From: Sphingopyxis sp. PAMC25046
GTDB taxonomy: Bacteria > Pseudomonadota > Alphaproteobacteria > Sphingomonadales > Sphingomonadaceae
Assembly (NCBI RefSeq): GCF_004795895.1
Contig: NZ_CP039250.1
Location: 2,356,001 to 2,420,000 of the forward strand
Direction of reading: 5' to 3'
Length of the DNA: 64,000 nucleotides
Part shown: positions 28,852-35,761 of the stretch, piece by piece
Position numbering within the stretch: position 1 is the first letter of the stretch
How the letters are laid out: the number at the start of each line of letters is the position of its first letter
Made by a program: the position numbers and the translations under genes
Notes under the pieces: model-generated
What the model was told of the DNA's origin: nothing
The model's input: only the letters and a program-made list of their open reading frames with translations
Databases searched by the model: none

Positions 28852-30024
28852 ATGGAAACCCGTGCCGGCGACCCCGGAGCTTTTGCCCGCTTCGACCTGA
28901 CCCGCGTTCCTTCTCCCGCCTTCGTCGTCGATGCAGCGAAAGTGCGCGCGAACCTCGCGCTGCTGCGCCACATCGGCGACGCGTCGGGCGCGCGCGTGCT
29001 TGCGGCGCTCAAGGCCTTTTCAATGTGGTCGCTCGGGCCGACCGTCGCCAAATATCTCGACGGCGTATGCGCTTCCGGCCTTTACGAGGCGAGGCTCGGC
29101 CGCAGCGAATATGGCGGCGAAGTCGCCACCTATTGCGCGGGCTACAAGGAAGCCGACCTGCCCGAGATTGCGGCGCTGTCCGATCATCTCATCTTCAACT
29201 CGCCCGGTCAGATCGCGCGTTTCCGTCCGCTGCTCGATCAGCTTCGTACGCAGGGCGCGAGGTTCGACATCGGCCTCCGCATCAACCCCATGCACAGCGA
29301 GGGCGAGGTCGCGAAATACGACCCTGCCGCGCCGTGCAGCCGCCTCGGCTTCCCGATCAGCCAGTTGCTGCCCGAACATATGGAGGGCGTCGACGGCGTC
29401 CATATGCACAGCCTGTGCGAACAGGATTTCCCGCCGCTCCAACGCACCTGGAACGCGGTGCAACCGATGCTGCGTCCCTTCTTCAGCCAGCTTAAATGGA
29501 TTAATTTCGGCGGCGGGCACCATGTGACGCGCGCTGACTATCAGGTCGACGACCTGATTGCCTTTCTGAAGCAGGTGCGCGCCGCGACCGATTGCGACGT
29601 GATGATCGAACCCGGTGAGGCGATCGCGCTCGACGCGGGCATCCTCGTCGGCGAAATCCTCGACCTGTTCGATAACGGCATGCCGATCGGCATCACCGAC
29701 ATTTCGGCGACCTGCCACATGCCCGACGTGATCGAGGCGCCCTATCGCCCGGCGATGCTCGACGAAGGGAGCGAGGGCATGCCGACGCGTCTCGGCGGCC
29801 CGTCGTGCCTCGCGGGCGACGTGATCGGCGACTATCGCCTGCCCGGCGGCGCGCGAATCGGCCAGCGCTTCGCCTTTCTCGACCAGGCACATTATTCGAT
29901 GGTAAAGACCAACACATTCAACGGAGTTCCGCTGCCGTCGATCTGGCTGTGGGATAGCGACACCGACGAACTGACGCTGATCCGCGAATTCGGTTACGAG
30001 GATTTCAAGACGCGGCTGGGGTGA
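28852..30024 (+). CDS. nspC: Carboxy(nor)spermidine decarboxylase
   Basis: PLP-dependent alanine-racemase-fold decarboxylase, 390 residues. The cofactor lysine is Lys54 in LAALKAFSMW; HSLCEQDF, NFGGGHHVTR and EPGEAIALDAG are family motifs, and DISATCHMPDVIEAPYRP supplies the active-site cysteine region. It removes CO2 from carboxyspermidine to yield spermidine (or norspermidine in vibrios). With the dehydrogenase at 26089 and the ornithine decarboxylase at 31920 this completes a spermidine route that does not need decarboxylated SAM. Its 3' end overlaps the convergent TrxR-like gene by 20 bp. Confidence 0.92.
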   Translation: METRAGDPGAFARFDLTRVPSPAFVVDAAKVRANLALLRHIGDASGARVLAALKAFSMWSLGPTVAKYLDGVCASGLYEARLGRSEYGGEVATYCAGYKEADLPEIAALSDHLIFNSPGQIARFRPLLDQLRTQGARFDIGLRINPMHSEGEVAKYDPAAPCSRLGFPISQLLPEHMEGVDGVHMHSLCEQDFPPLQRTWNAVQPMLRPFFSQLKWINFGGGHHVTRADYQVDDLIAFLKQVRAATDCDVMIEPGEAIALDAGILVGEILDLFDNGMPIGITDISATCHMPDVIEAPYRPAMLDEGSEGMPTRLGGPSCLAGDVIGDYRLPGGARIGQRFAFLDQAHYSMVKTNTFNGVPLPSIWLWDSDTDELTLIREFGYEDFKTRLG

Positions 30025-31663
30025 TCTCCGCCAGCGCCTGGTGGATGTCGCTGACCACAACCGATCCCTCGCCCACCGAAGAGGCGACGCGCTTCACCGA
30101 TCCTTTACGAACGTCGCCGACGGCATAGATGCGCGGCCAGCTCGTTTCGTAACGCGTCGGCATGCGGTCGAGCGACCAGCCCGCCTTGACGAGCTCCAGC
30201 GGCGCGATGTCGGTGCCGGTCTTTACGAAACCGCGCTCGTCGCACACCATCTCCTTGGGCAACCAGCTCGTATTCGGGCTGGCGCCGAGGAAAAGGAACA
30301 GAAAACCGCAATCGCAATGCCCCTCGTCGCCGGTATCGCGGCAACGATAGGTCAGGCCCGCCAGATGCTCTTCGCCGTGTAGCGCGATGACGTCGGTCGA
30401 CGGGATGATCTCGATATTCGGGTGCTCTTCCAGCCGCTTGACGAGATATTCGGACATGGTGTCGCGCAGGCTCGACCGGCGGAAGATGACGTAGACCTTC
30501 TTCGCGACGCCGGCGAGATAGATGGCGCCCTGCCCCGCCGAATTGCCCGCGCCGACGATCGTCACCTCGGCGTCGCTGCACAGCTGCGCTTCCATCGGCG
30601 TCGCGCCATAATAGATACCGCGGCCTTCATACGCCTCGATCCCGTCGATCGGCAGCGTCTGATATTTGGCGCCGCTCGCGACGACCACCGCCCGGCTGCG
30701 CAGTTGGCGCCCATCGGCGAGGTGGAGGCAATAGGCGTCGCCGTCGCGGTTGATCGATGCCGCACGCACGGGCGATACCAGCCGCGCTCCGAATTTCTGC
30801 GCTTGCACCGTCGCACGGCGCGCCAGCTCGTTTCCCGAAATGCCGGTCGGGAAGCCGAGGTAATTTTCGATCTTCGACGACGTGCCCGCCTGCCCGCCGG
30901 GCGCGAGCGAGTCGAGCGCGATGACAGTCAGCCCTTCGGATGCCGCATAGACGGCGGCCGCCAAGCCGCCCGGCCCGCTTCCGACGACCAGCACGTCGGC
31001 AGTCGCGCCATCGGGGAGAAGGTCGAGCCCGAGCCCCGCGGCAAGCTGCTCGGGCGTCGGTTGGACCAGCACTTCGGCCGCGCCAAGAATAGCAACCGGC
31101 AATTGATCCTCGGTCAGCCCGCGTTCGGCGAGCAGATGCGCCGCCACCGGGCCGTCGGCGGGGTCGAACCAGCGATGCGCAACGCCATGCTTCATGAGCA
31201 GGTCGCGCATCGCATAGACGCTGCGGTCCATCGCCGCGCCGATGATGATCGTGACCGCAAAGCCGCGATGCTTGCTGAACTCGCGCCGCGCCGACAGCAC
31301 GCGAATGAAGATATCAGAGAAATGGCTGTTACCCGCGATCAGCCGCTGGAAATCGGCATGGGCGATCCGCAAAATTTCCCCGTCTGCGCCCATTTCGACG
31401 CGCGAGAGGTGACGCTGCCCGGTTAGCACCGACAGGTCGCCTGCAAACTGCCCACGCTCCATCCAGCCGACGCGCTTGCGTCCTTCGTCGGTCGACGCGA
31501 AAATGTCGGTATGGCCCGACAGTGTGACGATACAGTCGGGCGCCATCTCACCCTCTTCGACGATCAGGTCGCCCGCCGCGCGCGATTCGACCGTGCCGAA
31601 CGCCCGCAACTCGACCAGCTCCGCGTCGGAAAATGTGTGATTGACCTCGGCGCGGGAAACCAT
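30005..31663 (-). CDS. cNMP-binding domain fused to thioredoxin-reductase-like flavoprotein, CxxC absent
   Basis: A 552-residue soluble protein. Residues 10-130 are a cyclic-nucleotide-binding-type domain (DLIVEEGEMAPDCIVTLSGH ... GQFAGDLSVLTGQ). A thioredoxin/glutaredoxin-like segment follows (about 135-215), then FAD-binding GSGPGGLAAAVYA near 228 and NADPH-binding GAGNSAGQGAIYL near 375. Where E. coli thioredoxin reductase has CATC, this protein has GATP (in YYGATPMEAQLC), so the usual disulphide is missing. Such fusions are known as annotated FAD-dependent oxidoreductases; substrate unknown. ATG 31663 is the start. Confidence 0.85.
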   Translation of the reverse strand: MVSRAEVNHTFSDAELVELRAFGTVESRAAGDLIVEEGEMAPDCIVTLSGHTDIFASTDEGRKRVGWMERGQFAGDLSVLTGQRHLSRVEMGADGEILRIAHADFQRLIAGNSHFSDIFIRVLSARREFSKHRGFAVTIIIGAAMDRSVYAMRDLLMKHGVAHRWFDPADGPVAAHLLAERGLTEDQLPVAILGAAEVLVQPTPEQLAAGLGLDLLPDGATADVLVVGSGPGGLAAAVYAASEGLTVIALDSLAPGGQAGTSSKIENYLGFPTGISGNELARRATVQAQKFGARLVSPVRAASINRDGDAYCLHLADGRQLRSRAVVVASGAKYQTLPIDGIEAYEGRGIYYGATPMEAQLCSDAEVTIVGAGNSAGQGAIYLAGVAKKVYVIFRRSSLRDTMSEYLVKRLEEHPNIEIIPSTDVIALHGEEHLAGLTYRCRDTGDEGHCDCGFLFLFLGASPNTSWLPKEMVCDERGFVKTGTDIAPLELVKAGWSLDRMPTRYETSWPRIYAVGDVRKGSVKRVASSVGEGSVVVSDIHQALAEITPAAS

Positions 31664-31814
31664 GACGGGTGAGTCCTTTCGGCTGTAGCTTGTCGATTAT
31701 CCCTAACGTCGCCGCGGGCCTTTGTCTCGTATTTGCCCCGCTCGGCGCGAAGAGACCCCGCTTCGGCGCGCGCGCCACGCCCGCGTTACAAAATTGCGCG
31801 ATAGGGCCTTTACA

Positions 31815-31919
31815 GGGGGGACCCCCCTCCATATATGCGCTTTCCGCTGCCCCAGGGGGACTTCCAATAACCGCAAGGCAGCCTTGGATGTTTAACTTTA
31901 CCTTTGGGGGTCCCTTGCA
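31815..31919 (+). promoter_or_regulatory. Structured 5' leader of the ornithine decarboxylase gene (speF-motif candidate)
   Basis: GGGACCCCC (31818-31826) can pair with GGGGGTCCC (31906-31914), which contains the ribosome-binding GGGGG of the downstream gene. It can instead fold locally (GGGGGG-A-CCCCCC, 31815-31827), or CCCCCT (31823-31828) can pair with AGGGGG (31854-31859). A further stem is CAAGG/CCTTG at 31874-31886. Mutually exclusive pairings that hide or free the ribosome site are typical of a regulatory RNA. A conserved 'speF' RNA motif upstream of alphaproteobacterial ornithine decarboxylases is known; identity with it is inference. Confidence 0.5.
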
Positions 31920-31950
31920 TTGCACCAGCATCATAGCGCCCACGGGCTGA
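31888..31950 (+). CDS. Possible 20-codon leader ORF overlapping the decarboxylase start
   Basis: ATG 31888 opens a frame MFNFTFGGPLHCTSIIAPTG that ends at TGA 31948-31950, 31 bases inside the ornithine decarboxylase gene but in another frame. AAGG lies about 10 bases upstream. It runs straight through the pairing region and the decarboxylase ribosome site, so translating it would open that site. It may be chance; many short ORFs are. It is listed because leader peptides control ornithine decarboxylase in enterobacteria. Confidence 0.3.
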   Translation: MFNFTFGGPLHCTSIIAPTG

Positions 31951-33113
31951 TTCAGGCACTTTCGCCGGTCGAACCTGTTACGCTTGTCCGCCCGCATGCC
32001 GCGCGGCGCGCTGCGCGTTTCTTCATCGAGCGATTTCCCGGCACGACCATGTATGCGGTCAAGGCGAATCCATCGCCCGACCTGCTGCGCGTACTGTGGG
32101 ATTCGGGTGTCACCCATTATGACGTCGCGTCGATCGCCGAGGTTCGCCTCGTCGCGCGCACGCTGCCGCAGGCGACGCTCTGCTTCATGCACCCGGTGAA
32201 GGCCGAGGAAGCGATTTCCGAAGCCTATTGGAAGCATGGCGTGCGCACCTTTTCACTCGACACGCTCGACGAGCTCGAGAAGATCGTCCGTGCGACCGAG
32301 GGTGCGCAGGATCTGAACCTGCTCGTGCGCCTGCGCGTCTCCTCCGATCATTCGAAGCTCAGCCTCGCCGCCAAGTTCGGCGCCGAGCCCGACGAGGTCG
32401 CCGAACTGCTTATGGCGACGCGCCAGGCCGCCGACGCGCTCGGCATCTGCTTCCACGTCGGCAGCCAGGCGATGACCCCGCACGCCTATGCGCAGGCGAT
32501 GGAACGTGTTCGCGCCGCGATCGTCGCGGCGTCGGTCACAGTTGACATCATCGATGTCGGCGGCGGCTTTCCCTCGTCCTATCCGGGCATGGAGCCGCCG
32601 CCGCTCGACGCCTATTTCGAGACGATCCACCGCAGCTTCGAAAGCCTGCCGATCAGCTATTCGGCCGAGCTCTGGTGCGAGCCGGGTCGCGCGCTGTCGG
32701 CCGAGTATAGCTCGCTGATCGTGCGTGTCGAAAAGCGCCGCGGCGAGGAACTCTATATCAACGATGGCGCCTATGGCGCGTTGTTCGACGCCGCGCATGT
32801 CGGCTGGCGCTTCCCCGTCACGCTGCAACGCGATGCGGGCAGCGACGCCGAGATGGTGCCGTTCAGCTTCTATGGTCCGACCTGCGACGATCTCGACCAT
32901 ATGGCGGGGCCCTTCTTCCTGCCCGCCGACATCAAGGCCGGCGATTTCATCGAGATCGGCATGCTCGGCGCCTATGGTTGCGCGATGCGGACCAAGTTCA
33001 ACGGCTTCGGCGCCGACGAGACCCATGTCGTCAGCGACGAACCCATGGCCAGCCTCTACACCGGCGAAGTCGAACAGGAACGCCGCAGCGCGACGGTGAC
33101 CAAGCTGTTCTGA
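31920..33113 (+). CDS. Ornithine decarboxylase (alanine-racemase-fold type)
   Basis: Converts ornithine to putrescine; 397 residues, the length of eukaryote-like bacterial ODC. Key residues are PLP Lys48 (YAVKANPSP), HVGSQ, DVGGGFPSSYPG, CEPGRALSAEYS and active-site Cys322 in YGPTCDDLD. The start must be TTG 31920: an in-frame stop lies at 31893 and no ATG or GTG occurs before residue 44; GGGGG is 9 bases upstream. Some relatives also use lysine, so dual activity is possible. It is followed by an intrinsic terminator and belongs with the carboxyspermidine genes functionally. Confidence 0.9.
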   Translation: MHQHHSAHGLIQALSPVEPVTLVRPHAARRAARFFIERFPGTTMYAVKANPSPDLLRVLWDSGVTHYDVASIAEVRLVARTLPQATLCFMHPVKAEEAISEAYWKHGVRTFSLDTLDELEKIVRATEGAQDLNLLVRLRVSSDHSKLSLAAKFGAEPDEVAELLMATRQAADALGICFHVGSQAMTPHAYAQAMERVRAAIVAASVTVDIIDVGGGFPSSYPGMEPPPLDAYFETIHRSFESLPISYSAELWCEPGRALSAEYSSLIVRVEKRRGEELYINDGAYGALFDAAHVGWRFPVTLQRDAGSDAEMVPFSFYGPTCDDLDHMAGPFFLPADIKAGDFIEIGMLGAYGCAMRTKFNGFGADETHVVSDEPMASLYTGEVEQERRSATVTKLF

Positions 33114-34606: not shown

Positions 34607-35761
34607 ATGTTGTCAGGGATCCGGATCGTCGACCTTACCACGGTCATCTTCGGCCCCTATGCAACGCAGATGCTCGCCGATCTTGGCGCCGAGGTGATCA
34701 AGATCGAAACCCCCGGCATGGGCGATATATCGCGCTATCTGGGCAACGGCGTTCCCGACCCGACGATGGGTTCGATCCACCTCACCGTGAACCGCGGCAA
34801 GCGCTCGATCGCGCTCGACCTAAAAAAGCCCGAAGACGCGGCGGTGCTACGCGACCTGATCGCGGACGCCGACGTCTTTTTCCATAATGTGCGCGGCAAG
34901 GCGATCGCGCGGCTCGGCTTCGATTATGACGGCTGCAAGGCGCTCAAGTCCGATATCATTTACGTCCATGGCACCGGCTTCGGGCAGGACGGCCCCTACG
35001 CGGACCTTCAGGCCTATGACGACGTCATTCAGGCGGCGACCGGCACCACCAGCCTGCTTCCCCGCGTCGACGGCAACCCTGCCCCGCGCTATTTCCCGTC
35101 GCTGATCGCCGACAAGATCGCGGGCCAGTTCGGCGCGCAGGCGATCCTCGCGGCGCTCGTCCACAAACTCCGCACGGGTGAAGGGCAAGAGGTCGAAGTG
35201 CCGATGTTCGAATGCTTCGCTTCATTCATGCTCACCGAACATCTGCGCGACGATACGCTCGACCCGCCGATCGGGCCCGCCGGCTATCCGCGCCAGCTCG
35301 ACCCGACGCGTCAGCCTTTCCCGACTAGCGACGGCCATCTCGCGATCGTTCCCTACACCCCCGAATCGACGGCGCGGCTGCTGAGCCTGCTGGGAAGCGC
35401 CGACCTGCTCGAAACGCCAGACTATGAAGCGGCAAAGGCAAAAGGGCAGCACATGCCGATCATCTACAGCGAGATCGCGCGCAAGACTCCGGCAAAGACC
35501 AGCGCCGAATGGCTGGAACTGTTCGCCGCCAATGACATCCCCGCGATGGCGGCGCGCGACCTTCAGGATGTCAGGGAAGACCCGCATCTGGTCGCCACCG
35601 GATTTTTCCGCGGCCGCACCCATCCCGATGTCGGCACCTTCCACGAAATGCAGCCGCCGGTGAAATATGGCGCGATGCCGCCCCGCGATCTCGGCTTCGC
35701 GCCGCGCGTCGACGGCGACGGCGCGGCGATCCGCGACGAACTCGCGGCCCGGCGTCGCTGA
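34607..35761 (+). CDS. Family III CoA-transferase (CaiB/BaiF)
   Basis: A 384-residue CoA-transferase that moves CoA between carboxylic acids through a catalytic aspartate. Asp169 in SLIADKIAG matches the conserved Asp169 of the family; GIRIVDLTTVIFGPYATQMLADLGAEVIKIE-like N-terminal sequence (1-33) and VNRGKRSIALDLKKPE follow the family pattern. Alpha-methylacyl-CoA racemases share this fold, so the exact reaction is uncertain. It stands alone between an MFS gene and two MAPEG genes. Confidence 0.9.
   Translation: MLSGIRIVDLTTVIFGPYATQMLADLGAEVIKIETPGMGDISRYLGNGVPDPTMGSIHLTVNRGKRSIALDLKKPEDAAVLRDLIADADVFFHNVRGKAIARLGFDYDGCKALKSDIIYVHGTGFGQDGPYADLQAYDDVIQAATGTTSLLPRVDGNPAPRYFPSLIADKIAGQFGAQAILAALVHKLRTGEGQEVEVPMFECFASFMLTEHLRDDTLDPPIGPAGYPRQLDPTRQPFPTSDGHLAIVPYTPESTARLLSLLGSADLLETPDYEAAKAKGQHMPIIYSEIARKTPAKTSAEWLELFAANDIPAMAARDLQDVREDPHLVATGFFRGRTHPDVGTFHEMQPPVKYGAMPPRDLGFAPRVDGDGAAIRDELAARRR

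Follow-up and report, generated by a model that had tools for sequence, protein, structure and literature searches.

The ornithine decarboxylase-like gene and its leader

The window, by which we mean the whole 64,000-nucleotide stretch of Sphingopyxis sp. PAMC25046 DNA that was analysed, carries on its forward strand an open reading frame (31920-33113) that begins with TTG at 31920, as the original prediction had it, and whose product scores above the cut-offs of PF02784 and PF00278; in an NCBIfam search of this frame no model reached its cut-off. By Pfam, the gene would encode an ornithine decarboxylase-like enzyme that probably makes putrescine from its presumed substrate. A CoA-transferase III gene (PF02515) is found downstream, at 34607-35761. 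A carboxynorspermidine decarboxylase-like gene at 28852-30024 (NCBIfam nspC, 381.7 bits, below the cut-off of 409.05) is separated from the ornithine decarboxylase-like gene by one gene on the opposite strand, and polyamine genes may thus be clustered at this locus. The parts of the leader and of its predicted promoter are as follows.

31809-31814, + strand: -35 box TTTACA, identical in 23/23 leaders of the genus
31815-31831, + strand: promoter spacer of 17 nt, containing GGGGGGACCCCCC, the 5' arm of the pairing put forward in the original prediction
31832-31837, + strand: predicted -10 box, TATATG
31846-31851, + strand: pseudoknot 5' strand GCUGCC, supported by pairing and compensatory changes
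31857-31867, + strand: putative anti-Shine-Dalgarno strand of helix P1, GGGACUUCCAA, largely invariant with few two-sided changes
31871-31876, + strand: loop CCGCAA, nearly invariant
31877-31882, + strand: pseudoknot 3' strand GGCAGC
31904-31914, + strand: putative 3' strand of P1, UUGGGGGUCCC, including the Shine-Dalgarno sequence
31915-31950, + strand: overlapping upstream open reading frame (uORF), UUG 31915-31917, 11 codons, stop TGA 31948-31950
31920-33113, + strand: main open reading frame, ornithine decarboxylase-like by Pfam (PF02784, PF00278), UUG start

The 23 leaders of the genus and most of 109 aligned leaders from across the family share one consensus, which runs GCUGCC - CCA(U/A/G) - GGGACUUCC - ACCGCAA - GGCAGC - variable loop - GG(A/G)GGUCCC - UUG - 2 nt - UUG. 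The 109 leaders were chosen by a pattern that required two nucleotides between the starts, so that within this set the spacing follows from the selection; not included are L043, which is missing its upstream end, L112, with a long insert, and the irregular L114. In L112, L192, L222 and L244 a long insertion separates the ribosome site from the pseudoknot strand, and all four keep the paired starts and the 11-codon frame (L112 by eye).

A conserved pseudoknot and a putative helix over the ribosome-binding site

The two strands GCUGCC and GGCAGC were compared in 108 distinct leaders, where 99.2% of 648 cells are paired. None of 500 shuffles equalled this on any of the measures and no slid register did so. 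Compensatory changes were found in L121 and L138 (U-A to A-U), in L128 (two pairs) and in L148 (U-A to C-G); L131 was misaligned in this count and, of the three pairs showing two-sided changes, one depends on L104, in which the helix is otherwise weakened. The pseudoknot is therefore supported by covariation across the aligned sequences.

The second helix, P1, would join 31857-31867 to 31904-31914, with the ribosome-binding site inside its 3' strand; over the family its strands read GGGACUUCCA(A) and (U)UGG(A/G)GGUCCC. Because MAFFT had set the G run in two registers, pairs were counted by script, with L132, which is without GGGAC, left out. The nine pairs on the base side are retained in 104-108 of 108 leaders and the two on the loop side in 80 and 57. 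In all, 92.7% of the P1 cells are paired, as against a mean of 91.3% and a maximum of 92.1% in 1000 shuffles, and these shuffles, like those of the pseudoknot, ignore the relatedness of the sequences. Pair 7 occurs as U-A (64 leaders), U-G (39) or C-G (3). Clean two-sided changes are limited to L022 and L044 at pair 7 and to L105, L136 and L146 at pair 10; covariation is thin here because P1 is nearly invariant. The support for P1 is thus of another kind, conserved pairing with few two-sided changes.

A C at pair 7 (L145) or at pair 6 (L093, L124, L129) was set aside, these cases being shifts or rearrangements and not clean compensation; in L093 and L124 there is a one-base insertion. The leaders that depart from the consensus are L104, which is weaker in both the pseudoknot and P1, and L129, L132, L145 and L147, in which the P1 strands are altered.

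The folding energy of the window's leader was no better than that of shuffled sequences (z 1.28, 0.41). Over eight folded leaders z ranged from -2.85 (L128) to 1.53 (L022), only L128 standing out, and by eye P1 belongs to the minimum-energy fold of seven of the eight. For 31844-31945 of the window the minimum-energy fold is not P1, and the centroid is P1. Beside P1, L131 and L148 have further potential hairpins, e.g. CCCCUGG-CAA-CCAGGGG in the latter, a hint that another hairpin may compete with P1.

Membership of the odc1 motif and distribution

This type of leader has already been published as the odc1 (uORF-25-1) motif (Brewer et al. 2021, RNA Biol, PMC8632094). On the layout given in the published text of that study, the leader analysed here is very probably an odc1 member, that is, a cis-acting RNA of about 70-80 nt that exerts translational control over an ornithine decarboxylase-like gene. 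The text describes a P1 stem with the ribosome-binding site in its right shoulder, to which 31857-31867/31904-31914 corresponds; a pseudoknot joining the loop to the 5' end (31846-31851/31877-31882); a UUG main start with another UUG two nucleotides upstream (31920 and 31915); and an overlapping frame of 11 residues (31915-31950). It also places the motif before ornithine decarboxylase genes of alphaproteobacteria, as here by Pfam family, and names pfam02515 among the associated genes, as in the PF02515 gene of the window. No defining difference emerged from the comparison, which was made with the published text rather than with the consensus figure. A literature search found no other work on the odc1 motif, and the available text of PMC11109978 and PMC6429828 mentions neither ornithine nor sphingomonads.

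In the same source, a reporter from S. echinoides assayed in E. coli showed that both starts work, the uORF giving about three-fold more, and that main-frame expression is lost on changing conserved residues 5' of the pseudoknot strand; reporter expression was modest and the odc1 section names no ligand (PMC8632094). From the wording of that text, mutants M4-M6 should lie in or near the CCGCAA loop.

A covariance model built from the 109 leaders matched, at a threshold of E 0.01, 162 genomes in a sample of 246 from the order, the weakest with E 0.0072. Among the matches listed every genome belongs to the genus or family of the window and, because the list follows kinship and by its end extended into other families, we read the distribution as 162/163 family genomes and 0/83 others. 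The one family miss among those listed is G418, of genus g316, with 64 further misses outside the listing. All three sampled genomes of g316 are without a decarboxylase match at E 1e-60, and 196 of 199 family genomes have one. Three genomes of one genus gave two model matches each; in the one that was inspected, L112, a long insert may split the match.

Five of 289 genomes in a sample of the class were matched: the window's own, three family members and one, G238, from outside the family (26 bits), which lacks the paired starts and was rejected as a chance match. The window's genome holds one copy of the leader at E 10. A search of named records gave at least 119 pattern stretches; among the 80 listed, 74 passed the model and six were rejected by it as chance matches. 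Carriers among the loci listed are Sphingopyxis, Sphingomonas, Sphingobium, Novosphingobium, Erythrobacter and a Zymomonas MAG, the Sphingopyxis loci encoding an N-terminus nearly the same as that of the window; S. echinoides was not found among these 80. In another family of the order, the leader L024 of an ornithine decarboxylase relative reads GGAGGTCCC-ATG-A-ATG and has a 6-codon overlapping frame; its genome, G037, gave no match to the odc1 model, and the arrangement is possibly an ancestral stage or a coincidence.

The overlapping reading frame and its fixed stop

In the window the two UUG codons, at 31915 and 31920, have two nucleotides between them. The frame opened by the first is 11 codons long in 106 of the 109 leaders and nine codons long in three (L094, L095, L111), which have gained an earlier stop and retained the later one; L114, with one nucleotide between the starts, has a 10-codon frame (by eye). 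These four differ from the published text, where peptide length is without variation (PMC8632094). A second set of 110 loci, with genomes partly shared with the first, was parsed for 102, the remaining eight being six chance matches, L177 (without the exact core) and L253 (at a contig end). All 102 have two nucleotides between the starts, and 101 have 11 codons, the last being cut off. In L115 and L222 both starts are AUG in place of UUG, as if the balance of starts matters.

All 109 leaders have a stop at the junction of main codons 10 and 11 (TAG 101, TGA 6, TAA 2), where the residue encoded by the main frame is Leu in 56, Val in 51 and Ile in 2. With these amino acids and the codon usage of the genes themselves, a stop would be expected in 5.8%. 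The codons used there are mostly the rare CTA and GTA, which in 31 complete genes account for 0.8% of the Leu codons and 2.9% of the Val codons, respectively. Among codons 2-26, compared over 192 distinct starts, bias is highest at codon 10 (5.23 bits), followed by codon 9 (2.96 bits). Stops in the uORF frame average 1.8% per codon in the 31 genes, and codon 10 is the only one with an out-of-frame stop in 31/31; codon 185 (21/31) and codon 93 (16/31) are also high and show that an isolated codon can reach a high value with no such role. As related sequences are not independent, all these figures overstate certainty.

The peptide itself varies by clade (ARWG, APTG, THGL and others), and for this reason the retained trait seems to be where translation of the frame ends, perhaps together with its final residue. 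A stop held at the cost of rare CTA and GTA codons, in a peptide that drifts, suggests that the site of termination is a functional part. The constant length of the peptide had already been noted in the published text (PMC8632094); the codon-level test of the stop and the exceptions in length are new here.

Proposed mechanism

The layout of a translational switch that was originally proposed holds up, in that a conserved leader is able to mask the ribosome-binding site of the TTG-started ornithine decarboxylase-like gene. In the most likely reading, P1 (31857-31867/31904-31914) would bury the Shine-Dalgarno sequence, and the pseudoknot (31846-31851/31877-31882) together with the CCGCAA loop would shape the fold of the leader. 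Opening of P1 would gate access, and the ribosomes would then split between the two UUG codons, decoy and enzyme: the first would yield a peptide of 11 residues, with its stop starting 28 nt into the main gene, the second the decarboxylase. A metabolite, most likely a polyamine or ornithine, may set the balance between the starts, which is a guess on our part.

With a ribosome at the uORF stop, the P site lies at a distance of 25 nt from the main start and of 30 nt from the upstream UUG. Slow termination of the uORF could, by spacing alone, exclude initiation at the main start, since both distances lie within or at one ribosome footprint. A somewhat doubtful extension is that the strictest selection acts on the end of the decoy frame and that the speed of termination, e.g. 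polyamine-dependent, could set decarboxylase output, as a bacterial analogue of the short eukaryotic uORFs that sense polyamines.

A possible, if less than probable, alternative is that the 11-codon frame is itself a sensor of termination or of the nascent peptide, in which ribosomes paused at the stop would block or promote initiation at the main start, the role of the RNA structure being limited to basal access. This would agree with a stop that all 109 leaders keep, by means of three different stop codons and over three main-frame amino acids, where 5.8% is expected, and with a codon bias that peaks at codon 10 and is second at codon 9. However, a peptide that varies between clades is unusual for an arrest peptide, three leaders have added an earlier stop, out-of-frame stops are common elsewhere in the gene (as at codon 185), and mutations 5' of the starts affect expression of the main frame in the published reporter (PMC8632094).

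An unlikely alternative to the gated choice between two starts is constitutive tuning, where P1 and the weak UUG starts just hold expression low and respond to no signal. The modest reporter expression and the absence of a ligand from the odc1 section of PMC8632094 would suit it, but low expression alone would not call for a pseudoknot and an unpaired loop that hardly varies.

The upstream complement lies between predicted promoter elements

The original prediction had the ribosome site hidden by a segment further upstream. The complementarity exists: GGGACCCCC (31818-31826) and GGGGGTCCC (31906-31914) are exact reverse complements of each other, and the sequences of the two competing folds, the local GGGGGGACCCCCC (31815-31827) and CCCCCT (31823-31828) with AGGGGG (31854-31859), are likewise in place. 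When 31780-31905 was shuffled 2000 times with dinucleotides preserved, 41 of the shuffles contained an exact 9-nt complement to some 9-mer of 31900-31919. In the 64-kb window, 6 of 1280 sampled positions were followed by an exact 9-nt complement at a distance of 12-112 nt. Such a match is unusual but not decisive.

Within the genus all nine pairs are kept in 18 of 23 leaders, eight in three, seven in one and five in one, in a segment that hardly varies in sequence. In relatives outside the genus the pairing proved not to be conserved: with 31 of the 103 leaders unscorable, none keeps nine pairs in the same register and two keep eight. Allowing any register in the 40 nt before the leader, and G-U pairs, nine pairs were found in 1/103 (L128) and eight in 14.

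This segment is flanked by what appears to be a promoter. Downstream of the invariant -35 box, TATAT (31832-31836) is kept in all 23 genus leaders except L016, and the two boxes are 17 nt apart in 22/23 and 16 nt apart in L022, the spacer holding GGGGGGACCCCCC or variants of it. Across the family a promoter-like pair of boxes occurs in 98 of 109 leaders, with a 17-nt spacer in 88 of the 98, a count that is not blind, the regular expression having been composed after the genus leaders were seen. The pair ends 6-12 nt 5' of the pseudoknot strand, and some leaders have a TTGC-type -35 instead. The transcript is predicted to start probably near 31844-31846. The 5' arm at 31818-31826 is most likely promoter-spacer DNA 5' of this start and not transcribed, because it lies between the conserved -35 (31809-31814) and -10 (31832-31837) boxes.

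That the helix 31818-31826/31906-31914 is itself the switch is therefore very improbable: an exact 9-nt match, complete in 18/23 genus members, has to be set against an arm inside the -35/-10 spacer, the loss of one to four pairs in 5/23 and a pairing that no leader of the other genera keeps in this register (0/103, 31 of them unscored). The layout for hiding the ribosome site stands and the proposed 5' partner does not, the better partner being 31857-31867. The case illustrates a trap, as promoter DNA can hold a perfect complement to a ribosome site.

The spacer sequence differs among genera, with recurrent G runs and GGGACCCCC-like stretches, and the 13-mer GGGGGGACCCCCC occurs once in the genome. 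Its place in the spacer, and the G runs that recur after the -35 box elsewhere, may reflect an operator or a spacer effect.

Relation to other leader RNAs

The assignment to the speF family (Rfam RF00518) that accompanied the original prediction is hardly tenable: the kind of target gene and the bacterial class are alike, but the speF model had no match in 31500-32200 up to E 10, Rfam 15 at gathering cut-offs matched no family in the window or in nine family loci, and sequence and layout differ. The speF RNA likewise precedes an ornithine decarboxylase gene in alphaproteobacteria but, in the published text, is a longer leader (construct -400 to +3; Corbino et al. 2005, PMC1273637), with other conserved sequence and another fold; its consensus core, ACUGAAGAGGCACACC..., has no counterpart in the leader. 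A lax Rfam scan of the leader returned just one weak, unrelated match on the opposite strand. In the class sample the speF model matched 11 of 289 genomes, nine above cut-off; in 60 relatives it matched none, in a search where the control too matched nowhere.

The E. coli speFL arrest-peptide leader also has a short frame 5' of an ornithine decarboxylase gene; there the leader peptide is longer and does not overlap, and the enzyme family is different. The spermidine riboswitch is another polyamine-related leader RNA but, according to the text of PMC10853860, consists of variants of SAM riboswitches, and the window holds no Rfam match at gathering level.

In the loci L031, L034, L036, L037 and L038, the Rfam small RNA ar45 lies directly 5' of the speF match with a gap of 7-8 nt, i.e. 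in 5/5 loci scanned, taken from the 11 speF loci; instead of being a separate small RNA, ar45 may form the 5' half of that leader.
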